Shown piece after piece: positions 46,027 through 64,000 of a DNA stretch of 64,000 nucleotides (within the stretch, counting starts at the first letter, position 1; each line of letters starts with the position of its first letter). Made by a program: the position numbers and the translations under genes. Origin of the DNA: an uncultured Eudoraea sp. (GTDB lineage Bacteria > Bacteroidota > Bacteroidia > Flavobacteriales > Flavobacteriaceae); contig NZ_CANLGX010000005.1 in assembly GCF_947490415.1 (NCBI RefSeq), positions 124,001 through 188,000 of the forward strand. Reading direction: 5' to 3'. Below the pieces are notes generated by a model, which saw only the letters and a program-made list of their open reading frames with translations, did no database searches and was not told where the DNA came from.

Positions 46027-46110
46027 GCTCGAGTGGTGGAATTGGTAGACACGTTGGACTTAAAATCCAATGGCCATTAGGCCGTGCGGGTTCAAGTCCC
46101 GCCTCGAGTA
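46027..46110 (+). tRNA. tRNA-Leu (anticodon TAA)
   Basis: An 84-nt class II tRNA. Acceptor GCTCGAG/CTCGAGT (one G-U), anticodon stem TTGGA/TCCAA with loop CTTAAAA (anticodon TAA), a long variable arm (TGGCCATTAGGCCGT), T stem GCGGG/CCCGC with loop TTCAAGT, discriminator A. The 55-bp spacer after tRNA-Gly holds two short hairpins (TGCC...GGCA and CTACC/GGTAG), as seen in processed tRNA transcripts. Confidence 0.97.
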
Positions 46111-46115
46111 CTTTT

Positions 46116-46148
46116 AACCCTCTTAATCATTTGATTTAGAGGGTTTTT
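46116..46148 (+). terminator. Terminator after the tRNA block
   Basis: AACCCTCT / AGAGGGTT stem with an AT-rich loop, followed by TTTT, five bases after the tRNA-Leu. It marks the end of the core region. Confidence 0.85.
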
Positions 46149-46473: not shown

Positions 46474-47559
46474 ATGAATAGGGTGGTAATCATTGGCAAT
46501 GGATATGATTTGTCTCTTGGACTAAAATCATCCTATAAATCGTTTTTAATGTGGTACTTGCATTTAAAAGTGATTCCGGGAATCCGTTATATGCCGAAAC
46601 CTTATGATGACAACCTTATTCGCCTAACAGATAATAATGGTCCATTCCCCAAAGAAGAATTTGACCAAACCGATTTAAAAAATTGTCTTAAACAAATACT
46701 CGAAGTAGATACAAAACATTCAAGGAGTAGCGTCTCGCCACTTCTTGATAAGTGTATCAATAATGGGCAAGAAAATTGGGTAGATATAGAACAAACATAT
46801 TATGATTTGCTATGTAACTATTCAGTTAAAAAAGTAAAGACCGATCAGGATGTTGATATGGTTAATGTGAAGAATCTAAATCGAAGTTTGAAACAGATAA
46901 GAATCTTCCTTATCGAATATTTGATCCAGATTCAAAAAGAAATAGATTCGTCGATCTTTCCTATTAAATGGCAAAAACTAAAAGCCCCATTTGAAACTTC
47001 TGAGGTTCGTAGCAAGAGATTAGAAAAAATTGAAACAACTAAATTAGAAAATCTTTTAATTTTAAACTTCAATTATACCTCTACGCTTACTCCCTTGATG
47101 TTACTCTTTAAAAAGCAACGTATAGAAGCAGAATTAATAAATATACATGGAAACATAGAAAAACCTGATGGGCCAATAATATTTGGATATGGCGATGAAA
47201 CTATTCAAAGTTATTTGGAACTCGAAAACTTAAATATAAATGAATGTCTAAAAAACATCAAGTCTTTTAAATATTTGGAATCACAGAACTACCAACGCTT
47301 AATGAATTTTATTGATATAAAGCATTTCGATGTATTAGTGGTTGGACATTCCTGTGGTATTTCAGATAGAGTCTTACTTAAAAGTATATTTGAACATTCC
47401 CATTGCATATTTATAAAACCTTTCATATATCAAAAAATGGATGGAACTAGCGATTATTTCGACAAAATAGCAGCGATTTCAAGACATTTTGAATTAAATC
47501 AAGAGATGAGAGACAAAGTAGCACAAAAAAAGTATTGTCCTGATTTCATAAAAAAGTAG
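46474..47559 (+). CDS. AbiH-family abortive infection protein
   Basis: The 361-aa protein belongs to the AbiH family, first found in lactococcal abortive phage infection. It opens MNRVVIIGNGYDLSLGLKSS, the family's nucleotide-fold start. Later it has LILNFNYTSTL (about residue 198), the IHGNIEKPDGPIIFGYGDE block (about 224) and VVGHSCGISDR (about 290). This spacing of GNG, NxNY, HG and GHS recalls the SIR2-like fold, so NAD binding is an inference. It is the first gene of the island after the tRNA block and is monocistronic. The target phage step is unknown. Confidence 0.9.
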   Translation: MNRVVIIGNGYDLSLGLKSSYKSFLMWYLHLKVIPGIRYMPKPYDDNLIRLTDNNGPFPKEEFDQTDLKNCLKQILEVDTKHSRSSVSPLLDKCINNGQENWVDIEQTYYDLLCNYSVKKVKTDQDVDMVNVKNLNRSLKQIRIFLIEYLIQIQKEIDSSIFPIKWQKLKAPFETSEVRSKRLEKIETTKLENLLILNFNYTSTLTPLMLLFKKQRIEAELINIHGNIEKPDGPIIFGYGDETIQSYLELENLNINECLKNIKSFKYLESQNYQRLMNFIDIKHFDVLVVGHSCGISDRVLLKSIFEHSHCIFIKPFIYQKMDGTSDYFDKIAAISRHFELNQEMRDKVAQKKYCPDFIKK

Positions 47560-51328: not shown

Positions 51329-52897
51329 GTGAATTGTATAGATTTATATAGTGGTATTGGAGGATGGACATTAGGGATGAAGCTTAATGGGATTGATCAT
51401 GTTAAGTCTTTTGAGTGGAATAAGGATTCTAATCAAACACATAATATAAATTTTGGAACGAATACTGAAGAGATTGATATTAGAAAACTTGATTTCAAGA
51501 CGTTGCCAGAAGTCGGCACAATAGATTTTGTTGTAGGAAGTCCACCTTGCACACAATTCTCTTATTCCAATAAAGGTGGCGGTGGGGATATCCAAGATGG
51601 ATTGGTGGATATGTACCAATTTCTTTGTGTGGTTGAATATCTTAAACCAAAGTATTGGGCTATGGAAAATGTGCCAAGGGTTAAAAATATCTTGGAAAAA
51701 GCTCTAAACGAAGATTCAAAATTTAAGCGATTCAAGAAACTATTTAATTATTTGGAAGTTGTTGATTCAAGTGACTTTGGTGTTCCGCAGAAAAGGAAAA
51801 GAATGATCGCTGGGAATTTCCCTTATAAATTATTTGAATCATATAAAGAACATACAGTTGAAAGAACGCTTGGCGATATTCTTAATGCCCTAGAACAAGA
51901 TGTTGTAATTGACCCAGTTTATAAATATTCCCTTCCCAAAAACGAAATAACAGACCATATTATAGAAGAAGCACTCAATCCAGAGGAATTGAGATTAAAC
52001 AGAGAATCAAAAACTTACCACCCAATTTACAATGGCATGTCCTTTCCAGAAAGATTAGATAAACCTTCTAGAACCATAACTTCAACTTGCACAAGAGTTT
52101 CTAGAGAAAGCTTGGTCATTAAAAATGGAGTTGGCTATAGAAGACTCACTGTTAGGGAAAGAGGTATGCTCATGGGATTTCCTGTTACATACCAATATTA
52201 TGGCAAGACATACAACTCTAAATTAAAGATGATTGGAAATGCTATACCCCCAGTAGTAACATATTATTTGTTTCAAAGTATGAAGGAAGTTCCAGTTGAG
52301 CAATTGACCTTAATAGATGATGTCAAAGTTTATCGCCATAACTCGCCGACAGAAGAAATCCCTATTACGCCTCCGGATAAAGTAAAGTTCAAATATAGAG
52401 ATGTGCGTTCTTTTAGATTAGCTATTCCAGAATACAGATTAGGTAGCGGGGTTAGATTCGAACTTTCAAACAAGTGTACAGAGAATATTTGTGTCTGGAG
52501 TATAAAATTCTTCTACGGTTCATCAAAGAAAATTAACCAAGTACTATTTACACATAAAAAATATAAGCAAATAATAGAATTTTTGAAAGTTCAGGACGTC
52601 AGAATTGACTGTGAACTTAATGAATTAATAAGCTTTTCCAAGACTGTTAGTTCTAGTCAATTGCAAAAAAGGTGGACCCATAAATCTAAGGAGTACACTC
52701 ATCCTTATGATGTGTTGGATAAGCTTTCTGAGTTTGGATTGAATTTGAAGAAAAGCCTATTAAATGTGAATATTTCTGATTCAGAATTTACTTCAATAGT
52801 TGGGAACAATTTGAATGCAAAGCTATTTGATAATAAGGGTTTGATTCTTTCTGGAATTGTTTTAGGGTATGTATTCAATAAAAATATTAAAAAATGA
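51329..52897 (+). CDS. DNA (cytosine-5) methyltransferase of a type II restriction-modification pair
   Basis: The 522-aa protein begins at a GTG (MNCIDLYSGIGGWTLGMK). It has motif I LYSGIGGW, motif IV with the catalytic Cys74 in VGSPPCTQFSYSNKGG, motif VI ENVPRV (113-118), motif VIII QKRKR (154-158), motif IX in RTITSTCTRVSR and motif X GNAIPPVV (303-310). A further region of about 190 residues follows motif X (containing FRLAIPEYRLGSGVRFEL), longer than minimal m5C methyltransferases. Its stop overlaps the endonuclease start (ATGA). It protects the host DNA at the site cut by the partner enzyme; the recognition site cannot be read directly. Confidence 0.94.
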   Translation: MNCIDLYSGIGGWTLGMKLNGIDHVKSFEWNKDSNQTHNINFGTNTEEIDIRKLDFKTLPEVGTIDFVVGSPPCTQFSYSNKGGGGDIQDGLVDMYQFLCVVEYLKPKYWAMENVPRVKNILEKALNEDSKFKRFKKLFNYLEVVDSSDFGVPQKRKRMIAGNFPYKLFESYKEHTVERTLGDILNALEQDVVIDPVYKYSLPKNEITDHIIEEALNPEELRLNRESKTYHPIYNGMSFPERLDKPSRTITSTCTRVSRESLVIKNGVGYRRLTVRERGMLMGFPVTYQYYGKTYNSKLKMIGNAIPPVVTYYLFQSMKEVPVEQLTLIDDVKVYRHNSPTEEIPITPPDKVKFKYRDVRSFRLAIPEYRLGSGVRFELSNKCTENICVWSIKFFYGSSKKINQVLFTHKKYKQIIEFLKVQDVRIDCELNELISFSKTVSSSQLQKRWTHKSKEYTHPYDVLDKLSEFGLNLKKSLLNVNISDSEFTSIVGNNLNAKLFDNKGLILSGIVLGYVFNKNIKK

Positions 52898-53505
52898 AAA
52901 TAGGAGCGCAATATTCCCATCTAAATGGTTTCGAATGGATTCAGTATCATCAAAAATCCTTATGGATGGAAATCGAAGAGGTAATCAACGCTATTAATGC
53001 AGATGAATATAGAACAAAGATAAGTAAGGAAAAAACCATGAAGGGTAAAAAACTATTTAGCCCGGTTGACTTAAATGGTAGGATAAAGGTCGAATTTGAA
53101 CATAGAGCATGGTTTGAAAGTAGGACCAGCTATTGGGTTACGGATGATTACAAATTGATTACGAAAACTATGCACTTAAAAGCTGAGGAGCAAAAGGCAA
53201 TTATAGAAGAGTCAAAAAGAACCCCAATCTATTCTTATAATCAAACAGATTTTGTTAAGAATAGAATTGCTGTAGAAGTTCAGTTTGGTAAATATAGTTT
53301 TATTGCATACGATTTATTTGTAAAGCATTTGGCATTTTATATTGGAGATACAATTGATGTGGGCGTTGAGATTTTGCCTATGAAATCAATGCAAGTTGAA
53401 ATGTCTTCTGGTCCAGGCTACTATGAATCTGCACTCTATGATCTGGCAAGACAGGGAAGGGGTGTGCCAGCAGTTCCACTTGTATTAGTAGGTATTGAAC
53501 CTTAA
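52894..53505 (+). CDS. BglII/BstYI-family type II restriction endonuclease
   Basis: The 203-aa protein matches the BglII/BstYI endonuclease family. The catalytic triad is in place: D119, nine residues on E128, then Q130 (TDFVKNRIAVEVQFGKYSF), the same spacing as Asp84/Glu93/Gln95 of BglII. Family-typical sequence follows (FIAYDLFVKHLAFYIGDTID, VGVEILPMKSMQVEMSSGPG, VPAVPLVLVGIEP). Its ATG overlaps the methyltransferase stop by 4 bp, so methylation protein is made first. Known members cut AGATCT or RGATCY, but partner methylases there are not always m5C, so the site here is open. It ends 9 bp from the convergent 370-aa gene. Confidence 0.9.
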   Translation: MKIGAQYSHLNGFEWIQYHQKSLWMEIEEVINAINADEYRTKISKEKTMKGKKLFSPVDLNGRIKVEFEHRAWFESRTSYWVTDDYKLITKTMHLKAEEQKAIIEESKRTPIYSYNQTDFVKNRIAVEVQFGKYSFIAYDLFVKHLAFYIGDTIDVGVEILPMKSMQVEMSSGPGYYESALYDLARQGRGVPAVPLVLVGIEP

Positions 53506-53514
53506 TTATTCGCA

Positions 53515-54627
53515 TTAGATCATTCTTTCAAATAGGTAGAAGTGTTTATAAAGATCATGCAACAACTCAATTCCACTTTCATTCTCATGGCATAGGTCTT
53601 CTATAATATCCAACTCTTCAGATTGTGGAAGTATTGAAATATTGATTTTTTCCTTAAATGACTTTCGAATCTTTTCCATTACAGCAGCAGAATTAGTGTT
53701 CGTATAGATTCTAAAAAGTTCATAATATTCTAATTCATGTGTGGTTGAATCTAATAGAAATTCATTTTGAAGGATAAGATCTTCTAATTCTTTTCTCTTA
53801 ATGTGATAACCTTTTGGATAATCTTTTCTTTTGGCAGTATCAAATAGAGGAGTCTGGACAAATCCTTGAGCAAATATCTCCAAATATTTTCGATTAAGTG
53901 CTAGTATAAATTGGTGCAAAATTGGAGTATTGCCCTTAAAAAAACTTTCTCTATAAGACTTGATCAACTGATCAAGGAAGAGGATTGTAATCTTAATCTC
54001 ATTTATATTTTCAAACTTAAAGTTCAAATGCCAAGCTCTAGTAAAAAGAATATGAATAGTAATCATCTTTTTGAGATATTCAGTATTTTCTATATTAGAT
54101 ATAAGGAACTTAGTATAGATGTGTATGACTTCAACCTTGATGGAATTTGTAGTATTATTACGTTTAATTTCCCAATTATTTGGTCTTAGACTAGTAAAGG
54201 AACTTAAATGATCATTCAAGAAATCTTTTAGGGTTGATGAAAAATAAATATCTGTTTCATCTAAGAATTTCTTAAAGAAAAATTCTAACCCCCACATTAA
54301 ATCGTTATTATAGCTTAGTCTTGTTTCAAAGACCCTCTGATTCTTATCAAGACAGGTGATTACTGAATTAAAATCCTTCTCAAATAACAGATTTGTTAGA
54401 ATAAAGTCCTTGTCATAATCCCAAATTAATTCTATTAATTCTTTATAGAATTTACATATCACTGCTGGACCACTTTCAGAAATGTTATTATAATAATGAG
54501 TTATCCTTTTGAGTAATTCATCTCGAAAGGATTTATATAAAATATCTTTTTGATCAATAGAAGATTTATAAAATTCAGATGTAAATCGCTGGCGTAAAAA
54601 ATACTTATTTTGTTCTTCAAAACCCAT
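53515..54627 (-). CDS. Unrecognised 370-aa protein, last gene of the DISARM-like operon
   Basis: A 370-aa protein starting MGFEEQNKYFLRQRFTSEFY. It is AT-rich in codon use and predicted largely helical, with no signal peptide, no membrane helix and no HKD motif, so it is not a phospholipase-D type DrmC. Its start overlaps the end of the drmB-like gene by 11 bp, so the two are translationally coupled. The C-terminal half (LEDLILQNEFLLDSTTHELE, EKIRKSFKEKINISILPQSE) gives no motif that I know. It stands where class 2 DISARM loci often carry drmC, so it may be a functional replacement or an added factor. Confidence 0.65.
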   Translation of the reverse strand: MGFEEQNKYFLRQRFTSEFYKSSIDQKDILYKSFRDELLKRITHYYNNISESGPAVICKFYKELIELIWDYDKDFILTNLLFEKDFNSVITCLDKNQRVFETRLSYNNDLMWGLEFFFKKFLDETDIYFSSTLKDFLNDHLSSFTSLRPNNWEIKRNNTTNSIKVEVIHIYTKFLISNIENTEYLKKMITIHILFTRAWHLNFKFENINEIKITILFLDQLIKSYRESFFKGNTPILHQFILALNRKYLEIFAQGFVQTPLFDTAKRKDYPKGYHIKRKELEDLILQNEFLLDSTTHELEYYELFRIYTNTNSAAVMEKIRKSFKEKINISILPQSEELDIIEDLCHENESGIELLHDLYKHFYLFERMI

Positions 54628-56719
54628 TTAACAAATCTTTAAAAAATCCTTTATCCATATCTACGAGCAATTTTCGGTCTAAATATAAATTTCTATGCTC
54701 ACAGGAAGTTTCACTTACTAAACTACAGGAAAAGCAAGAAGCAAAATTTAAATCGAATAATCCTTGACCTTCAGACTCCCAGCACAATGGATCGCTATTA
54801 CAAATAGTAGCTCTTTTTATAGCACTTTTTATTAAATTATTTAGATTTTGACGTCTAGTTTGAGCTATCAATCCTCCCATACTTCCTTCTGCTCCCTCAG
54901 CCGTATATATTAAACAGCCATACATTTTATGTTTTATTTCATTGGATACATATATTCTTTCTGACAAAGAGGCCGTGGGATAACCACATCTAAATTCCAA
55001 TTCTCGCATTATCAAATGAGAAAATGTATGAACTAAATATAATTGCCAATTCATAACATTAGCAAAATCAACAGCACCTTTATTGAATGAATTTGTTTGC
55101 TTATGCAAATAAGCTAATTGAATTTGCAATTTTTCTATAATGTTATTATTGTTAATAAACTCATCAATCAACTCATTCTTAAACGAAAAGAAGATGCCTT
55201 CACCAAAATTCTCCACTACGGGGTAAACTTGGACTTTATCATTATTACTTCTAAATATATTTTTAGAATGTACATTTTCTGCATCCGGATCTATTGGAAC
55301 AACTCTTGAAAAATCTAGCTGAGCAGATGTTACTTTCATGTTATCTACTCTAAGTACTCGAGTGAAATAACCTTTAGTTTCTTCATCTAAATTTTGGGTA
55401 ACCTCCTTTACTTTTAAGTCTTTAGGGTATTTTGTTAATAAAGCCTCATCTTTATGAAACGCTTGGAATTCATTAAATCTATAAATCATTTCACGCTCTG
55501 AATCCAAAACTACTGTCTTTTCCTCCCCAGGCTGTTTAGCTTCTAACTCTTTAATTTTATTGTTTAACTCTTCAGCTAAACTGTATTTTTCATTACTAAC
55601 GGCCTGTTCCTTCTCCGATTCTAATTTCATAATCGCTAAAGCAATGTCACTCTCAAATAATTCACTATGCAAGTATATGCTCGATTTTATTCTTGAATAA
55701 TAAATGTTATTCCCTGTTGTTAAGGCCACCTTCATCGGTTTTTCACAATTACAAGTTTCGAAAGGAGGCCCCTTTATTCTGGAATTCATATTTCCAGAAT
55801 ATGGAAAACGAACATCTAATGCTGTAGAAGATTCCCAAGGTTTATGGCCAGGACATTTAATTTTAACACCCATTAAACCCTTAAGTGATGTTCCTTTATT
55901 TCCTAAACAACCAGGATTATTACAGCGCAGATATTTACCATCATATCCAGATGCATTCCCTATGTTTGAGGTTATTTTAATTTGAGGATTATTACAACAA
56001 TCTTGATTAATAAATATTTCTACAGAATTTTCTACATATATGGCTAAGGGTTCTTCTTTACGCCATCTTAAAAATTTAGACCATGGAAAATCACTTATAT
56101 GGCCATGTTCACAAAGTAATATTATATTGTCTTGTTTTAAATCACTTGTCCACCCCTTTTTTTCATTAGCAACATATTTTGGTGGATGAAACTGTTTTCC
56201 ATATTCATCTGTTTTCTTACCATCACTATCACTTCTTTCAGTCCATTCTTTATACCATTTTCTATATGATTTATAGTTCTTGTTGTCATCTGCAAACACT
56301 TTAGGCATATAGGTGCTTGGAATAGCTAATTCAACGCCACTTTTTATTTTATTACTATATGTGACCAACTCAATATCTGGTATTAACACGAGGTATTTCA
56401 AGTTTGGCAATTCCTTACTTATTTGCAAAGATTCTAATAATCTATTGTCATTTGAGATTCCTATGTTTCCATTTCTTTCCAATCCAGCATCTATAGAAAC
56501 TTCTTTAACGATTTTATCTTCAGCGGTTCCTTTTTGAATAAATTCATTATGAATTTCTAAAACCTTTTTTAGAAATCCCCACTCTTCAATACAAGAAATA
56601 ATGATACTGCCATATTGTGTATGTACTAAAGACCCTGGTCCGCCATATGCAGATAGCAACTTGTATTTACTGACAGATTCGTTTGCAGCGCTATTTTGGA
56701 CATGTTCTTTTTTTGCCAT
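54617..56719 (-). CDS. DISARM DrmB-like DUF1998 protein
   Basis: The 700-aa protein ends in a DUF1998 domain: MNWQLYLVHTFSHLIMRELE (about residue 555), CGYPTASLSERIYVSNE and CLIYTAEGAEGSMGGLIAQT (about 605). A C-terminal Cys-rich zinc site follows (CNSDPLCW, CFSCSLVSETSC). Upstream are LCEHGHISDFPWSKFLRWRK and CC/C pairs of another metal site. DrmB pairs with the helicase DrmA in DISARM and helps it to load on DNA. The gene follows drmA after 3 bp. Identity as DrmB is inferred from the domain and the DrmA neighbour. Confidence 0.85.
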   Translation of the reverse strand: MAKKEHVQNSAANESVSKYKLLSAYGGPGSLVHTQYGSIIISCIEEWGFLKKVLEIHNEFIQKGTAEDKIVKEVSIDAGLERNGNIGISNDNRLLESLQISKELPNLKYLVLIPDIELVTYSNKIKSGVELAIPSTYMPKVFADDNKNYKSYRKWYKEWTERSDSDGKKTDEYGKQFHPPKYVANEKKGWTSDLKQDNIILLCEHGHISDFPWSKFLRWRKEEPLAIYVENSVEIFINQDCCNNPQIKITSNIGNASGYDGKYLRCNNPGCLGNKGTSLKGLMGVKIKCPGHKPWESSTALDVRFPYSGNMNSRIKGPPFETCNCEKPMKVALTTGNNIYYSRIKSSIYLHSELFESDIALAIMKLESEKEQAVSNEKYSLAEELNNKIKELEAKQPGEEKTVVLDSEREMIYRFNEFQAFHKDEALLTKYPKDLKVKEVTQNLDEETKGYFTRVLRVDNMKVTSAQLDFSRVVPIDPDAENVHSKNIFRSNNDKVQVYPVVENFGEGIFFSFKNELIDEFINNNNIIEKLQIQLAYLHKQTNSFNKGAVDFANVMNWQLYLVHTFSHLIMRELEFRCGYPTASLSERIYVSNEIKHKMYGCLIYTAEGAEGSMGGLIAQTRRQNLNNLIKSAIKRATICNSDPLCWESEGQGLFDLNFASCFSCSLVSETSCEHRNLYLDRKLLVDMDKGFFKDLLNGF

Positions 56720-56722
56720 AAC

Positions 56723-59700
56723 CTATTGTTGTACTGTTTTAATAACTGCAGAAGCTCCTATTTCTCTTAAGGAATATGAAACTTTCCAATGATTTGGATA
56801 GTTATCGTCACTTGCATTAATAAACAATGATTTTAATCTATTTTCATGATTTCTATAATTCAAATCAACAGGCTGTGGCAAGTTGTCGATTAACCCTATC
56901 CATCTTTCTAGTAATTCATTCACTTTAAAATCAATATCATCAACTTCTTCTTGTGTGATTATACCGTCAATAGTTGAAGTTATTCCTGCTGTTCTGGTTT
57001 GCAAATGTTTGTCTAACTTTTTTCCGTTATTATACACTTCTTGAACTTCTGAAGTTATTAAATCCTTGATAATTTTAATTTTATCGTTGTCAATATCTCT
57101 AGCAGATTCATTATTTATCAATCCCAAATCTTTATTGTGGCGAATGATGACAATTGCATACATAGCTAAATAGCGATCTAAAGCTTTACTTGCAAAAGGA
57201 GTTACAGATATTGGTTCAACATAGCTATAAAATTTTTCGTGAAATTCTTTGAATTTTTGATAATGAGAAATATCTCTCGACCTGAATGGGTGATGCACTG
57301 TAAAAACAACACCATCTTCATCTCTTGCTACCCTACTTGAGGCCTGTATGTATTCAGCAATATTTCTAGGCATAGAATTAATCACAATAGTATTAAACCG
57401 TGAAACATCAATACCTACAGATATCATATTGGTAGAAATAACGAATTCTGGCGAGCTAATTTTTTTTAATTTCAATTTATCTGAATCCTCTATTGGCTCC
57501 AGGAGAGTCCATTCTTTTTCAATATCAGCTAAATGTGTTTTAACCTCTTCACCAGATAATCTACCTGTAAGTTCGGAATACTCTATTCTTTCTTTCCTTA
57601 TTAACTTATCTAAGAAGCTCCAAGGAATGGTGTTTTTTATAACATGGTTTATATCTCCAGGTAAATAATGGTCTAACTGTGATTGTGCCTTACCAACATC
57701 TTTTAAACTGTTATAATACGCTAGGATAGTATGATAATAATCAAATACCTTTTTAAGCTTTTCAAGAGTTTCTGGAGTTTCAAAAACTTCATCAATGGTA
57801 TATTTTTCTTTAAAATATTTTAGCCTATGACTTAAGCTAATGGATATGATACGTAATTGCATCCAAACTTGAGTTTTTCCTATAGGTAATACTCCAATAT
57901 ACTTTCTTTTAGATTCATATTCCCATATGTTATCTTGATTTACTTTTCTTTTATAAAATGCAAAAAATGAATCGTCACATGTAATTCCTTGTTTGGGAAA
58001 AATTTCAGACCTCCTATTAAACAAGGCAAAAATTTGTTTGTCGGTATTTCTGGTTGTTGCCGTGGAAGTGACTATTTTGGGTTTTATTTTGTTCCCATTT
58101 TCATCATGGTAAGTACATAAATAGTCTATACTTTTCTCAAACAAACCAACTGAAGAACCTAATGGACCTAACAAAAGATGTAATTCATCTTGAATTATTA
58201 ATTCCGGTGGTAAAACATCCCTTTCATTATATCCTTTGCCCACTAATCTTTGAGAGTCTTTATTTCTTCTGCCACTTTCTGTAGATACATTATTAGCAAA
58301 AGCTGCAAATTTATCTACCGTACCAAATAATAAGGTTGGAGGATATTTATAAATATCCTCATCAAATAATCTAAATGGCAAACTTTTTGTATTAGATGGT
58401 CTTCTGCTATGAAAAGTGCAACCTGTTGTATTGCAAGCGATATTTAATTGATCATTAATCCCATAATTCCCAAAGTGATTTGGTTTTATATTCTTTAAAT
58501 CCTTATCAACAAACAAAGCTCCCCCACACCAAGGACAATTTGTAAAAGGAATATTCGTGGAAATTGATTGATCATTTTCGATTAAATCAGAAATCTTCTT
58601 TAACTCTTTAATCATAGATTTATCACCTTGACTCCAATAGTTTGGCAACGAATCTCCTCCTACAAATAAACCAATAGAAATACGTTCATCGCCTAAAGAA
58701 AAGTTTTCGGGTAAAGAAAATTCATCTTTTCTAATTACATCTAATGCAAAAATTAGTATTGTAGCCCTTTGAAACTGTTGAAGGGTTAGCATTCTCAAAG
58801 TATAACGCATTAGAATTGTAGTGCCATAACCGTTTTCTCCTTTGGTAAATCTTCTTAAGGAAATAGCGAAGGCAATTATTCCTAAATATGCCTCAGTTTT
58901 ACCACCACCAGTTGGAAACCAAACCAAATCTGCAATTTCATTTCTTTCAGGCCAACCTGAACCAAATACATCCTCTACAGTGTTATCTTCCTCATTTGGT
59001 TTTACAAAAGCATCTATGTTAAGAAGAATAAATGCCAACTGAAAAGAACGCCACTTATAATCATTTTCCAATGAGACATTTTTATAATACTTCTCATCGT
59101 TATTTTTAGGCACAAATAGTTTGTTCCCTTTATCAGTTTTGATACTATGATGTAACTGCATAAACATAGCAGTGTTCATTGTTCTAAATGAAGCAATAGC
59201 TTCTTTATTTCTTTCTAATAAAGCAATGTTTCTCTGTAATCGCCTATAATCTTTTCTACAAGCTTCTAATTGTTTGTTAAGTAGTTGTTTTGATTTATCA
59301 TTAAGCTTTTCATTATTTAAATTTAAATTTTCTTGTTTGTCATTTATCCAACAAATAGAACCTTCATTACCATAGGCATCAATAAATGAATTTAAACCAT
59401 CAATAACTTCTTCGTCTTTAGCGTTGCTCAAAGTAGACAAATAGCGCATAGATAAAATACCATCATCTAAAAGCCTATTTTTTATATCGTTGCCTTGAAT
59501 TTCACTAGGCTTGAAATCAACCGATGGAGTTTCTTGTGTCGGTAGAAAATCAGATGATATGAAGGTTAGGTTGTCCTTTGATTTCCCCCAATTAACTGAT
59601 GTATTATATCCTTCTCCATAATCTATATATTCCCTGTATATTAATTTATTAAAACTATCTTCTTCATCAAAATCTAACAATTGAGGAGGGTTATATTGTA

Positions 59701-61000
59701 AGAGTGAATTTTTAGTGGTTTCATTAATTTTTAATTCAACACCAAAGAATGATAATTTATTTGCTCTGTTTTTTTTATTTAATTGAGGAGTCTCATTTGG
59801 TTCTAACTCATATTTATTAGCGTTTTCAATTAATATTTTCACATAAACTTCATTCTCCTCCGCTTTAGGAATTAAGTATTGAACATAATATTGCAAACTT
59901 TCTTTATCCTTCTCGTCAATTGCTTTTCGTTTATCTCTTTGAATTGCTATTCCTTTTAACTTTGGTAAAGTAATTTTTCTACTAGATATTTCAGATTCCC
60001 AAACTGGTGAAGAGTCCTTTTCTTTTAGAATTGTTTTTAGGTCTGTTGTAATTTGAATTAGCTGATTATAAATCTCTAGTTCTTTTATTAAATCTTTATA
60101 TATAGAATAGTTAACGATTCCACATTCTAATTTTTTTTGAATAAAGCTGCTTATTGCGTCACTGAAAATTGTGAAAACATTGGAATGAGAATACTTTGTA
60201 TCTGAGATAGAGTAAAACTGTTTATTCCCATCCTCTAAACCAAAATACTTTACTCCTTTGACCATATTTAATTCAACTATTTTATTCTCAAAAGGTTGAA
60301 TTAAAGCTGATAGGAATTGATCTCTTACGTATGCATTTAATAAATTATAATCAATACTGTAAATATCATCTTGATTAAAAATCCTTTTTGGATAAACAAA
60401 AAGATTATTATCCTTTTCCTCAATTCCAAAATCTTGTGTTAAATATTTTGTTACGATATGTTTTATTTCAGCCTTATACTCTTTTATGTTTATTGCTATT
60501 CTGTTTTCAAGAAGGGTCTTTTTCGAAACTTGCTTATATTTCCTGTAAGAAAGTGAAATTAGCAAATCATCATTAATGTTTTTGTTTTTGTCAAAAACAA
60601 ATGATAACCCAAAAGTATTAGGATAATTTTGCTGTGTTAGTACAATATTTGAAGATGTGTCTTCAGAAATATTTTCATCATCTGCAGAAGTATTTGAGCT
60701 TTCTTCTTCAATATCTTCACTTTCATCAATTACCTCTTGACCTTCTTTTCTGTTTTGTGGTTGAGTGGGTTGAGTGGTTATTGGAAATAAAATGGCGGAA
60801 CTGTATTGATAAGCAGGAACCTCTGGGATAATTTCATTAAAGTTCTGTAAGGCAGGAATCTGAGATAAATCTTTTCTATAATACTCTGATTTGTCCCAAT
60901 CTTTAAGAAAAAAGTATTTTTTATTGTATGCTCCTGGGCCTATAATTTGTTCCTTAACAAAAATCTCTAAACCATTTCTTTTTTCTATGAACTCATTCAT
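56723..61000 (-). CDS. DISARM DrmA-like superfamily 2 helicase
   Basis: The 1425-aa protein is a large SF2 helicase. Walker A is in WFPTGGGKTEAYLG (about residue 694), the DExH-like box in IIQDELHLLLGPLGSSVGLF (about 935), and motif VI in YIQASSRVARD (about 1220) with the preceding STNMISVGIDVSRF. Between Walker A and the DExH box lie a Cys4 zinc site (CPWCGG, CNTTGC). This combination, with 'FPTGGGKTEAYLG' and 'QDELHLxxGPLG', is the DrmA pattern. The N-terminal 650 residues are divergent. It overlaps the 771-aa gene by 4 bp (ATGA) and precedes the DrmB-like gene by 3 bp. Confidence 0.87.
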   Translation of the reverse strand: MNEFIEKRNGLEIFVKEQIIGPGAYNKKYFFLKDWDKSEYYRKDLSQIPALQNFNEIIPEVPAYQYSSAILFPITTQPTQPQNRKEGQEVIDESEDIEEESSNTSADDENISEDTSSNIVLTQQNYPNTFGLSFVFDKNKNINDDLLISLSYRKYKQVSKKTLLENRIAINIKEYKAEIKHIVTKYLTQDFGIEEKDNNLFVYPKRIFNQDDIYSIDYNLLNAYVRDQFLSALIQPFENKIVELNMVKGVKYFGLEDGNKQFYSISDTKYSHSNVFTIFSDAISSFIQKKLECGIVNYSIYKDLIKELEIYNQLIQITTDLKTILKEKDSSPVWESEISSRKITLPKLKGIAIQRDKRKAIDEKDKESLQYYVQYLIPKAEENEVYVKILIENANKYELEPNETPQLNKKNRANKLSFFGVELKINETTKNSLLQYNPPQLLDFDEEDSFNKLIYREYIDYGEGYNTSVNWGKSKDNLTFISSDFLPTQETPSVDFKPSEIQGNDIKNRLLDDGILSMRYLSTLSNAKDEEVIDGLNSFIDAYGNEGSICWINDKQENLNLNNEKLNDKSKQLLNKQLEACRKDYRRLQRNIALLERNKEAIASFRTMNTAMFMQLHHSIKTDKGNKLFVPKNNDEKYYKNVSLENDYKWRSFQLAFILLNIDAFVKPNEEDNTVEDVFGSGWPERNEIADLVWFPTGGGKTEAYLGIIAFAISLRRFTKGENGYGTTILMRYTLRMLTLQQFQRATILIFALDVIRKDEFSLPENFSLGDERISIGLFVGGDSLPNYWSQGDKSMIKELKKISDLIENDQSISTNIPFTNCPWCGGALFVDKDLKNIKPNHFGNYGINDQLNIACNTTGCTFHSRRPSNTKSLPFRLFDEDIYKYPPTLLFGTVDKFAAFANNVSTESGRRNKDSQRLVGKGYNERDVLPPELIIQDELHLLLGPLGSSVGLFEKSIDYLCTYHDENGNKIKPKIVTSTATTRNTDKQIFALFNRRSEIFPKQGITCDDSFFAFYKRKVNQDNIWEYESKRKYIGVLPIGKTQVWMQLRIISISLSHRLKYFKEKYTIDEVFETPETLEKLKKVFDYYHTILAYYNSLKDVGKAQSQLDHYLPGDINHVIKNTIPWSFLDKLIRKERIEYSELTGRLSGEEVKTHLADIEKEWTLLEPIEDSDKLKLKKISSPEFVISTNMISVGIDVSRFNTIVINSMPRNIAEYIQASSRVARDEDGVVFTVHHPFRSRDISHYQKFKEFHEKFYSYVEPISVTPFASKALDRYLAMYAIVIIRHNKDLGLINNESARDIDNDKIKIIKDLITSEVQEVYNNGKKLDKHLQTRTAGITSTIDGIITQEEVDDIDFKVNELLERWIGLIDNLPQPVDLNYRNHENRLKSLFINASDDNYPNHWKVSYSLREIGASAVIKTVQQ

Positions 61001-63312
61001 TTTTTAATAGTTTTTATTTCAGTTAATGTGAGTTGACTTAATATTGTTGATATTATAGATTCAGAAATTTCTGTGATTTCAGTTTTATCAGTAGTATTGA
61101 AAATGCTGTTGTATTTATTAACAATTTTAGATACTGTATTGATAATAGTTGGGTCTTCAATTTTGCCTAACCAATTATTTTCTAACAACAACTCAATAAT
61201 TGATTTATACATCTTTTTTAAATCATTCTGCTTGCTTCTTCCATAATATGCAATAAATGCTAGTTGTTGATCTGAGTGGTTAATGTTTAAGAACTCGCAA
61301 ATTATTGCCCAATCTTTTTTTCTTCTTGAAATTCTAAATGTATGCTCTTCATTTATTTCTAAGACATAGTTATTATCAAAGTAATTTTGATGCTGATAAG
61401 AAATACCTTTATTTTTTAAAGTTTGATAAACATTTTCTTTTTTAAATAACTGATTTTGATACTTCAAAACATCTTGAGGTATATTTACCAATTTATCGTA
61501 CAAATTATTCGATTTATACAATTCTGATATATCAATATTTCTTACAAAAAAATCACCCTTTTTAAGATTAAAAGCTTTTACAAATATCAAGGTGTCCTTT
61601 TGTAATAGAACTTTTTCTGTTGATGAAATTGCTAGTTCATTTTCTAAGTATTGATTTATTATAATTATTTTATTCTCGTGGTTAACTTCAGAAGCAGTGT
61701 TTTCAATTTCTTCAGCATTTGTGAATTCTAAATCTTCCAAATTTGGATTTTCATCTTCTATTTCATCTTCTATTTCATCTTTGTATTTGCTTCTATAATT
61801 TTTTAAATCCAATTTAATTCCTCTTTTTATCTCTATCTTTAACTCTTCAATTTCCTCTTTGTTAGAAATATAATTCTCATCCAAAGCTTCTCTCAAGCCA
61901 ATAAATAATGGCGTAAATTGATAATTGAATAAATATAATTTAATAAAAGGCTTGTATCCAAAATATAAAAAATCAGGTACCATTACATTAATAGTATCCT
62001 CACAATTAAACTGATTTAAATTTGCTAAATAGATAATATTAAATGAGTCAAATACTTTTACGTTTTTATAATTATGAGATTCGACTTTATCGATAAATTC
62101 AACATTTTTGTTAAGAGAAGTGACATAGTTTCTAAAATTATTATATACAAACTCTAATCTTTTTTTTCTTAAACTTTTTAATTCTGGAAATAGGATTATT
62201 GTTGAATCTGTTAATACACTTTCAATCCAATTTAATTCAATCACCTCATCTATAATTTTTTCGATAGTTCTTATTATTGGCTTTTCAGCAACCGCGGGAA
62301 AGTCTTTTTTAAATTGCTTAAGCCATTCCTCATTGGTTAAGGAAGCATTTAAAAACAGCAACCAATATTTAGGGAAAGGAGTTGTGAATTTATTTAATTC
62401 TAATTGAAACCACTGCTCATTAAAAGATCTAAACAATTCATATAAATCTTTACTGTGGTTTGTATCAATTATAGTATACTCTATTTTAGTTGTTAGATTA
62501 GCTTCGTCTTTTAATAGAACCAAATCATTTTTTAAAATGTCATTGTATGCAAAGCGATTATTAAAAACTAATTTGAATTTCTTTTTAGCAATATCGATTA
62601 AATAATCGTGTGGTTTTTTAGAATATGGATATTTTATTAAGAGACTATTATTTAATTCTTGAGCCATAAGTTGGTCCTCTAATTCCATAGCCGAGTCATC
62701 GTCTAAAGTGCTATCAACAAAAAATAGATTTTCAGAAATAAATTCATTATCAATATTTTCTAAATTATTAAAGGATAACATCGTTTCATCTAGTTCAATT
62801 AGTAGTGGGAAATCAAAAACCTCTGTTTTTCGGATGCTTTTAAATAATTCAAAAGTGTTTTTGATTGTTTTTGATTTATTAAGCCTTATTATTTCTTCTT
62901 TACTAAAAACAGGTAAAAATGCATCTAATTTTGCAAGCGTATTTTCTCCTTTTGTAAGCGTATTTTCTCCCCATAAAACGTGGTTTTCGTTTAGTTTGAT
63001 AAAATCTAAAGTCAATTCATCCATTTTTTCACAGGATGATGCATTGAATATATCAAATAGGCAAGTGCCTTCAAATTCAGTTAGTTTTTCCCCTTTTAAC
63101 AGATTAAAAACTACAGTAAAAGCCCTGATATAATTAAAAGATAACGTTAATAGTTCCTCAGAACAATAGGGTAAATGCAACGAAAGCTTTTCTTGATTTG
63201 ATACTAGAAAACGAAAATACCAAGATCCTATGACTGCTAATTCATTATTATTTTCTTCTTGTAGAAAATCAATAATTACATTATGGATTTTTTTAAACTC
63301 TATTTTGTCCAT
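60997..63312 (-). CDS. Unrecognised 771-aa protein, DrmE-like by size and position
   Basis: The 771-aa protein starts MDKIEFKKIHNVIIDFLQEE and lies directly upstream of the drmA-like gene with a 4-bp overlap. I see no helicase or nuclease motif. A region with acidic repeats (KDEIEDEIEDENPNLED) and a Lys-rich C-terminal half (FLVKAFNLKK-type GDFFVRN segment, RISRRKKDWAIICEFLNI) are visible. Class 2 DISARM loci encode a similarly long protein of unknown function, DrmE, next to the DrmA/B genes, and this is the best candidate here; I cannot confirm the match. Two short in-frame tandem repeats occur in the gene. The start overlaps the UvrD-like gene by 13 bp. Confidence 0.6.
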   Translation of the reverse strand: MDKIEFKKIHNVIIDFLQEENNNELAVIGSWYFRFLVSNQEKLSLHLPYCSEELLTLSFNYIRAFTVVFNLLKGEKLTEFEGTCLFDIFNASSCEKMDELTLDFIKLNENHVLWGENTLTKGENTLAKLDAFLPVFSKEEIIRLNKSKTIKNTFELFKSIRKTEVFDFPLLIELDETMLSFNNLENIDNEFISENLFFVDSTLDDDSAMELEDQLMAQELNNSLLIKYPYSKKPHDYLIDIAKKKFKLVFNNRFAYNDILKNDLVLLKDEANLTTKIEYTIIDTNHSKDLYELFRSFNEQWFQLELNKFTTPFPKYWLLFLNASLTNEEWLKQFKKDFPAVAEKPIIRTIEKIIDEVIELNWIESVLTDSTIILFPELKSLRKKRLEFVYNNFRNYVTSLNKNVEFIDKVESHNYKNVKVFDSFNIIYLANLNQFNCEDTINVMVPDFLYFGYKPFIKLYLFNYQFTPLFIGLREALDENYISNKEEIEELKIEIKRGIKLDLKNYRSKYKDEIEDEIEDENPNLEDLEFTNAEEIENTASEVNHENKIIIINQYLENELAISSTEKVLLQKDTLIFVKAFNLKKGDFFVRNIDISELYKSNNLYDKLVNIPQDVLKYQNQLFKKENVYQTLKNKGISYQHQNYFDNNYVLEINEEHTFRISRRKKDWAIICEFLNINHSDQQLAFIAYYGRSKQNDLKKMYKSIIELLLENNWLGKIEDPTIINTVSKIVNKYNSIFNTTDKTEITEISESIISTILSQLTLTEIKTIKK
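61751..61781 (-). repeat. 12-bp tandem repeat inside the 771-aa gene
   Basis: The unit TCATCTTCTATT occurs twice in full (61751-61762, 61763-61774) and then for seven more bases. It encodes an alternating acidic run (DEIEDEIEDE). As a multiple of three it keeps the frame and could vary in copy number. Confidence 0.75.
62929..62970 (-). repeat. 21-bp tandem duplication inside the 771-aa gene
   Basis: Two adjacent 21-bp copies (62929-62949 and 62950-62970) differ at one base. They encode the twin GENTLTK GENTLAK. A recent in-frame duplication is the simple explanation. Confidence 0.85.
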
Positions 63313-64000
63313 AAGACTATTTTAACCTGATCCATAGCTCTTGTAACTGCTACATAGTTTTGAATCTTAGACTTTTCATCCAAGTTATTTGTAATTAAAT
63401 ACACAGATTTGTTTTCTAGACCTCTATATTTAATTGGGGTTGTAAACCTAATTTTAGAAGATGGAATATTAATGTTACTTTCGACTAATTCCTCTAAATC
63501 ATTTTTAAAATAATCTTTAACTATTTCTTTAAAATAATCAATTAATGAGCTGTGAATTAAAATTATTTGTTCTGTTTTTATGAATTTAGTTTCGTCAATA
63601 ATTTCTTTAATTATTTTTAACTTTTCTACTAATTCTAAAACTATTGCATCATGTTTAATCACATTACTATTAAGTAGTTCATTAGAGAGAGTTACTATAT
63701 GTTTATTTTGTCCACATCTGTATGTTTCGTCAAATAGATAATGTGTAAAACCATTTTCAATATAAAAATCTGTATAAAAGGAAATGTCATTAAAATTGTA
63801 GATTATAGTTTGTTTAGGATCATATAGGACCAGCAGTTTGGGAAGTTCCATGTTATATTCAAATTGTTCAATCAACTCGAATAATCCTTTATTAAAATAT
63901 TCCTGAGCTTCATCAAAAATTACGAACTCAATTTCATTAGATAAATCTTCATTTATGGAATTTTCATGGTACACTTTGAATGTAATTAATGTATCGTCTA
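63300..64000 (-). CDS. UvrD/Rep-like helicase, 5' part cut by the window edge
   Basis: The minus-strand frame stays open to position 64000, so the gene starts beyond the window. About 233 codons are visible. They hold SF1 helicase motifs: motif II FVIFDEAQEYF (Walker B variant DEAQ), the DETYRCGQNKHIVTLSNELL segment, YRGLENKSVYLITN and motif VI YVAVTRAMDQVKIVLWTK at the C-terminus. Motif I (Walker A) must lie upstream. UvrD-type motors with such a C-terminal end occur in many phage-defence systems. The gene overlaps the 771-aa gene by 13 bp, so it belongs to the same operon. An N-terminal nuclease-related domain is possible but unseen. Confidence 0.85.
   Translation of the reverse strand, partial: DDTLITFKVYHENSINEDLSNEIEFVIFDEAQEYFNKGLFELIEQFEYNMELPKLLVLYDPKQTIIYNFNDISFYTDFYIENGFTHYLFDETYRCGQNKHIVTLSNELLNSNVIKHDAIVLELVEKLKIIKEIIDETKFIKTEQIILIHSSLIDYFKEIVKDYFKNDLEELVESNINIPSSKIRFTTPIKYRGLENKSVYLITNNLDEKSKIQNYVAVTRAMDQVKIVLWTK

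Follow-up and report, generated by a model that had tools for sequence, protein, structure and literature searches.

A probable DISARM variant of Bacteroidota with a NERD nuclease-helicase and no DrmC

In the genome of an uncultured Eudoraea sp. (assembly GCF_947490415.1; 3.89 Mb, listed as 100% complete), a 64,000-nucleotide stretch of contig NZ_CANLGX010000005.1 (positions 124,001 to 188,000, hereafter the window; G000:C5:124001-188000 in our numbering) carries at its right end a five-gene operon that we regard as a new variant of the defence system DISARM. The operon probably represents a Bacteroidota branch of DISARM, situated on a tRNA-Leu island, in which the nuclease is a NERD domain fused to a superfamily 1 (SF1) helicase rather than DrmC, and in which the DrmE-like partner has strongly diverged. 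Judged from its sequence, the operon would work in anti-phage defence, with the NERD-helicase as its putative nuclease effector.

Organization of the operon

All five genes lie on the minus strand, with successive spacings of -13, -4, +3 and -11 bp. The operon was judged real and complete once the DNA past window position 64000 (L003) was read, an extension proposed in the initial annotation, which a model had made from the letters of the window. Gene 1 crosses the window end: its C-terminal part occupies 63300..64000, and the full gene of 554 amino acids (aa) spans L003:2300-3964 on the minus strand, reaching approximately window position 64964. The operon starts with it, since the nearest same-strand gene upstream, encoding a 784-aa mobile-element protein, ends about 1.27 kb away. 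It is followed on the same strand by genes for a divergent DrmE-like protein (gene 2, 60997..63312, 771 aa), DrmA, a superfamily 2 helicase of the YprA type (gene 3, 56723..61000, 1425 aa), DrmB, an MZB/DUF1998 protein (gene 4, 54617..56719, 700 aa), and an all-helical accessory protein (gene 5, 53515..54627, 370 aa).

The DrmA-DrmB core is supported by family models of PADLOC, NCBIfam and Pfam. DrmA matches the PADLOC DrmA model at E 2.9e-175 and NCBIfam NF038325 at E 7.2e-217 (723 bits), and its helicase motifs are present (GGGKT at 698, DELH at 938, QASSR at 1219). DrmB, encoded by a separate gene that adjoins drmA across the 3-bp gap, exceeds the cut-offs of both NF038324 (282.5 bits against 240) and PF09369 (27.3 against 24.2). 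The initial annotation had recognized both the five coupled genes and this core, and both stand, coordinates and spacings included. Genes 1 and 2 have no match among the DISARM models of PADLOC or NCBIfam.

Gene 1 encodes a NERD nuclease-helicase

A NERD domain (PF08378, residues 44-143, 55 bits) and a Schlafen group 3 helicase domain (PF09848, residues 271-441, 51.9 bits) were found in gene 1, both over the Pfam cut-off. The protein had been labelled a second, UvrD-type helicase of a superfamily different from that of DrmA; the difference in superfamily stands, but a plain UvrD helicase is rejected on the strength of the two domains. Gene 1 being a fusion of a NERD nuclease and a helicase, the operon does possess a nuclease. 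In its predicted domain make-up, a NERD nuclease and an SF1 helicase in one protein, gene 1 is Nhi-like.

The nuclease residues Q72, D74, E87 and K89 (QxD...ExK) are invariant in all 18 aligned gene 1 rows, the window included, and so are the helicase residues of Walker A (G278, G280, K281, T282) and of the DE[AG]Q box (D351-E352, Q354), together with R542. The same nuclease and helicase motifs occur in the gene 1 of locus L038, which lies outside this alignment. Compared with solved chains, the gene 1 profile gives Schlafen 11 and Schlafen 5 as its first matches, over 62-96 positions. Seven PADLOC matches were obtained for gene 1, none of them named Nhi, although it was not checked if PADLOC includes a model of that system.

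Across 395 Bacteroidota genomes, gene 1 matches above 500 bits occur in four (G000, G053, G245 and G373), which are the four that have a long DrmA, an association judged to exceed chance. The window genome G000 and G053 (locus L070) sit in the search alignment and match by construction, while G245 and G373 are outside it. Of five weaker matches, three share a contig with a DrmA (G104, G241 and G374). The other two, in G042 (84 bits) and G069 (78 bits), fall outside the set of 44 genomes in which DrmA matches were obtained. With three candidates scored per genome, the search counts too few, as it missed known NERD-helicases in G143, G179, G205 and G028.

Conservation of the operon in Bacteroidota

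Genome contigs were scanned with four DrmA sequences, which gave at least 558 relatives, of which the best 80 were kept. Twenty-two of these (L050-L070 and L095), all titled Bacteroidota, align with the whole or the greater part of the window DrmA. In a FastTree phylogeny of 87 DrmA rows the window clade is starred at 100; as counted on this tree it comprises 22 rows, among them the window and L038, with L051 and L065 left out. Nineteen clade loci are complete, i.e., flanked on each side by 4.5 kb or more, counting the window and dropping the duplicate L037. The gene order recurs and the partner genes are kept in the relatives, where the initial annotation had suggested looking for the same set. 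The NERD-helicase is present in 18 of the 19 distinct complete loci, and in 11 relatives that were measured, neighbouring operon genes are spaced by -23 to +17 bp. The locus of the F. tructae relative (G245/L054) is split over two contigs.

Outside the window clade, NERD-helicases were found in 18 more DISARM loci. Their position differs among loci: the gene may precede drmA, precede the DrmE-like gene or follow drmB. An acidic loop of DrmA was considered as a mark of the clade and dropped, as it does not stand out when compared with 70 other DrmA rows. The search of viral contigs found nothing related to the DrmA alignment.

Distribution of DrmC and the NERD-helicase

No DrmC, the phospholipase D nuclease typical of DISARM, was found over the cut-off in the window genome: NF038319 requires 133 bits, and its sole match there reaches 30.6. 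The reported absence of drmC from the operon is confirmed. To compare DrmC with the NERD-helicase, 94 loci were labelled by profiles of both proteins within 7.5 kb of drmA (thresholds 1e-20 and 1e-10), and co-occurrence was counted in the 61 distinct loci whose flanks reach 4.5 kb or more on either side. The NERD-helicase alone is present in 31, DrmC alone in 18, neither in 12 and both in none. In the 43 loci outside the window clade the respective numbers are 14, 18, 11 and 0. One DrmC locus, L100, has a 13-bit match to the NERD-helicase profile, which is below the threshold and was not counted.

Gene 2 encodes a divergent, probably DrmE-like protein

Gene 2 occupies the place of DrmE in the operon, ahead of drmA, and searches of PADLOC, Pfam, NCBIfam and PDB sequences gave it no match with an E value below 0.1. 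Its family profile (20 rows) was compared by hhalign with 16 DrmE-related rows, which gave a probability of 95.8 over 137 columns in the C-terminal part. Each sub-branch alone gave 90.1 and 82.1, the C-terminal halves 96.2, and ten control comparisons with unrelated families 0.3 at most. When six DrmE rows were scanned with NCBIfam, four were above the DrmE cut-off, and L040 and L047, which had entered by iterated profile, were without a match; leaving these two out (14 rows) gave 95.2. The C-terminal part of gene 2 is therefore likely to be homologous to DrmE, in agreement with its earlier description as DrmE-like in size and place.

The structure model of gene 2 (pLDDT 75.1, pTM 0.50) has no match at E<=0.001 among PDB folds, and its profile retrieves from the PDB only 2ao9, a phage protein (E 0.049), and 5o9j, an intein chain (E 0.37). 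Gene 2 was not found in the plasmids or phages searched. Residues ~549-592 show a weak local likeness to intein/Hint folds, both in Foldseek (42-46 columns, probability at most 0.85, E at least 2) and in the sequence profile (E 0.37), without significance in either. In seven loci (L076, L082, L085, L086, L087, L089 and L092), the DrmE-related gene, as recognized by iterated profile, is seemingly split into parts of approximately 300 and 490 aa; the pair in L087 has no NCBIfam match, and the three split loci with full flanks (L076, L087 and L089) hold neither DrmC nor a NERD-helicase. In L040 (6936-17005, genome G057), a 690-aa Piwi-domain, argonaute-like protein is encoded 13 bp upstream of a DrmE-related gene, found by iterated profile only, which is followed by DrmA and DrmB.

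Methylases and other candidates for self-marking

The operon of the window contains no DNA methyltransferase, a typical DISARM component, and no remnant of a lost methylase was found upstream of gene 1. The initial annotation was right that a drmM gene is missing from the operon itself, but a C5-cytosine DNA methylase (51329..52897, plus strand, 522 aa; PF00145, 156 bits) adjoins it in convergent orientation. Its partner is a BstYI-like type II restriction endonuclease (52894..53505, plus strand, 203 aa), which matches BstYI (1sdo) with 267 bits over residues 1-203, PF09195 with 106 bits and PADLOC REase_II at 1.6e-84. The final stops of this restriction-modification (R-M) pair and of the operon are 9 bp apart. 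In a whole-genome search, the methylase was the only PF00145 match in its genome. Its C-terminal part has no BLAST match to DISARM methylases (best E 0.62, to other proteins), so that its kinship with them is that of the C5 domain.

Among the 19 complete clade loci, nine have a C5-methylase of approximately 570 aa as the first gene of the operon, and in two more (L057 and L095) a C5-methylase of the same kind (42-63% identity to the others) lies divergent or convergent beside it. In the F. tructae relative, the C5-methylase upstream of gene 1 is 64% identical to that of L052. A further six loci have at the operon head a gene for a 470-500-aa protein with the radical-SAM motif CxxxCxxC, conserved in all six (L061:4383-5795, L064:3656-5158, L066:3439-4866, L067:4433-5866, L068:3269-4702 and L069:4430-5842). 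Of three such proteins scanned with Pfam Radical_SAM, two matched below the cut-off (E 0.0023 and 0.042) and the third did not match; one weak match (E 5.7e-5) to the protein was obtained in 296 Bacteroidota genomes. A BLAST search with the window methylase gave no match in any of the six loci. Five of the six genomes hold C5-methylases elsewhere, which weighs against marking by the radical-SAM-like protein and leaves room for a methyl mark; the exception is L066, a 1.4-Mb assembly, with none.

The remaining two loci, the window and L056, have neither head gene, and in both a convergent R-M pair ends close to the operon, at 9 and 14 bp respectively. In L056, the pair consists of a MutH-domain endonuclease and a C5-methylase abutting the operon (L056:17514-20175), and this methylase, too, is the only PF00145 match in its genome. 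We take the make-up of this pair to resemble that of Sau3AI. The recognition site of BstYI is RGATCY and that of Sau3AI is GATC. It is possible that in such loci the adjoining R-M methylase stands in for the one missing from the operon.

Proposed mechanism

We propose that DrmA-DrmB would scan for, and be switched on by, free-ended, single-stranded or unmarked invading DNA; activation of this kind was reported for another DISARM (PMC9142583). The NERD-helicase would be recruited to the loaded DNA, or follow it, and degrade it; this role is assigned to it because its motifs are conserved and DrmC is absent. The DrmE-like protein may connect the parts of the system. Host DNA would be spared, being without such ends and carrying the mark of a partner enzyme. 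In many relatives the mark would be made by the C5-methylase of the operon, and in the window perhaps by that of the BstYI-like R-M pair.

A broader, rather doubtful reading is that DISARM is modular at two slots: killing would be performed by DrmC or the Schlafen-like NERD-helicase, and the self-mark would be supplied by a C5-methylase, by a radical-SAM protein making a mark other than a plain methyl group (the six loci described above, which are from Bacteroidales), or by the methylase of an adjoining GATC-type R-M system (the window and L056). In the last case, an ordinary R-M system would lend its self-mark to a DISARM operon. A radical-SAM-like gene at the place of the methylase would, if it marks DNA, point to an unknown chemistry of self-recognition.

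Evaluation of the DISARM assignment and alternative explanations

Several observations weigh against a DISARM variant armed with a NERD-helicase. The 723 bits of DrmA fall under the NF038325 cut-off of 950. Gene 2 is tied to DrmE by its C-terminal part only, the N-terminal halves giving an hhalign probability of 1.8, and against the four NCBIfam-confirmed DrmE rows alone the probability drops to 6.0 (E 0.0063), so that the homology depends on alignment depth. The NERD-helicase is missing from the operon of L059 (Filimonas zeae), and 12 of the 61 loci have neither nuclease. The loci were sampled by similarity to the window DrmA, and the Fisher value of 6.6e-8 for mutual exclusion of NERD-helicase and DrmC ignores kinship. 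On the DrmA tree (76 labelled rows, unknown states omitted), the NERD label requires six changes and the DrmC label three; six independent pairs differ in NERD, and at most one of them also in DrmC (sign test p 1). DrmC is nearly restricted to one DrmA clade, and one switch therefore fits the data as well as many. A repeated replacement of DrmC by the NERD-helicase had been considered and was withdrawn, the independent pairs giving no support and DrmC needing only three changes. The stand-in role suggested for the R-M methylase rests on two loci, the window and L056.

The locus may instead hold two defence systems side by side, i.e., a DrmAB module and an independent, co-transcribed Nhi-like nuclease-helicase, which we consider unlikely. 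Such independence would agree with the weak NERD-helicase matches in G042 and G069, genomes with no DrmA match, with the description of Nhi as a standalone defence (PMC10732053) and with L059, which keeps the rest of the operon; the NERD label on the DrmA tree could also be largely inherited. It is countered by the fixed place of the gene, overlapping or nearly touching its neighbours, in 18 of the 19 complete clade loci, and by the NERD-helicases at varied places in the 18 further DISARM loci. Less probable still is a class 2 DISARM of the ordinary kind, in which drmE is poorly conserved, the neighbours are accidental and the NERD gene is idle. The C5-methylases and DrmE-like partners of the relatives are indeed as in class 2, and DrmC was reported to be dispensable and often missing (PMC9142583). 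However, the NERD gene occupies the first or second position of a coupled operon, and no variation is seen in its catalytic residues; the conservation of both place and residues argues against an accidental neighbour. Such accidental neighbours were what the initial annotation would have inferred from a drmC or standard drmE nearby together with the absence of the 370-aa and UvrD genes in relatives; neither drmC nor a standard drmE lies just outside the window, and the partners are conserved.

It is very improbable that the operon belongs to another system built on a YprA helicase, such as ARMADA, TALON or BRIGADE. In TALON, a NERD nuclease does accompany a YprA helicase (PMC12458937). Here, however, DrmA and DrmB are separate genes, a trait that the same source finds consistently in DISARM alone. 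No BrxHII-like, PglX-like, TPR-cold-shock or TBP family was matched by any gene of the operon, a single 14-bit PglW match falling in the NERD part of gene 1, and the best models are those of DISARM DrmA and DrmB. The initial annotation had left the choice between a variant DISARM and a distinct system built on DrmAB; of the two, the DISARM variant is the likelier, because the relatives carry C5-methylases and a DrmE-like gene.

Comparison with known systems

Class 2 DISARM comprises drmE, drmA, drmB, drmC and drmMII. The operon resembles it in DrmA, the separate DrmB, the probably DrmE-like gene before drmA and the C5-methylase of many relatives, and differs from it in lacking DrmC and an internal methylase, in having the NERD-SF1 nuclease-helicase, in the strong divergence of its DrmE-like gene and in the extra helical protein of its sub-branch. 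With class 1 it shares the DrmA-DrmB core, but it is without the DrmD-like helicase, adenine methylase and DrmC. Nhi, set alongside by make-up only, likewise has a NERD-type nuclease and an SF1 helicase in one protein; unlike Nhi, which is a system of its own, gene 1 belongs to a DrmAB operon. TALON shares the pairing of a YprA helicase with a NERD nuclease, and differs in its ARMADA-like helicase and its TPR-CSD and TBP genes (PMC12458937), whereas the window has split DrmA and DrmB and a NERD domain fused to an SF1 helicase. The suspicion that the layout matches neither published class was borne out in the literature examined. NERD is listed for Nhi-like and Mokosh systems (PMC10952713), and no mention of a NERD-helicase in DISARM was found in the consulted parts of the four sources cited here.

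Bravo et al. described DNA degradation by DISARM when DrmC is dispensable or missing as a mystery and proposed a borrowed phospholipase D nuclease (PMC9142583). A conserved nuclease-helicase in DrmC-less operons offers a testable alternative to such borrowing, and the NERD-helicase is a candidate for the enzyme that cleaves phage DNA in DISARM systems lacking DrmC. Automatic DISARM annotation would also widen, given that genes 1 and 2 escape the current DISARM models of PADLOC and NCBIfam.

Gene 5 and the genomic island

The AlphaFold2 model of gene 5 is all helix (mean pLDDT 75.7) and has no match at E<=0.001 among PDB folds; at the sequence level, PADLOC, Pfam and NCBIfam give no family below E 0.1. 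A degenerate DrmC, or its helical domain, is supported neither by the model nor by the fold search nor by hhalign; thus, of the profile comparisons proposed initially, gene 2 with DrmE gave a link and gene 5 with DrmC did not. Homologues of gene 5 are located at the same place in nine other members of the window's sub-branch with a 3' flank (L050, L052-L058 and L095), with 18-28% identity in the eight aligned; L056 is linked only weakly (BLAST E 0.009). The sister sub-branch yielded no supported homologue; L060 has a gene at this place without BLAST support, and the sequence of L062 ends short. Gene 5 had been taken for a partner in the system; it is conserved in relatives, but its limitation to one sub-branch makes it appear accessory.

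The operon lies together with the R-M pair on a 25.4-kb island at a tRNA-Leu gene (46027-46111). An exact 22-bp attachment-like repeat beside the tRNA (46116..46137) recurs 25.4 kb away at L003:10524-10545, beside an integrase (L003:9073-10344); the wider match of approximately 45 bp at 93% includes the 3' end of the tRNA. Upstream of the operon are mobile-element genes for the 784-aa protein, a helix-turn-helix protein and the integrase; the 784-aa protein, with no family match over cut-off, is read as primase/helicase-like. The G+C content is 30-32% inside the island versus 36-37% outside. No window-type DrmA was found in nine congeners, and in one congener (G399, 82% complete) the two island flanks are about 0.3 kb apart. 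The same island also carries an AbiH-family abortive infection protein (46474-47559; PF14253, 101 bits).

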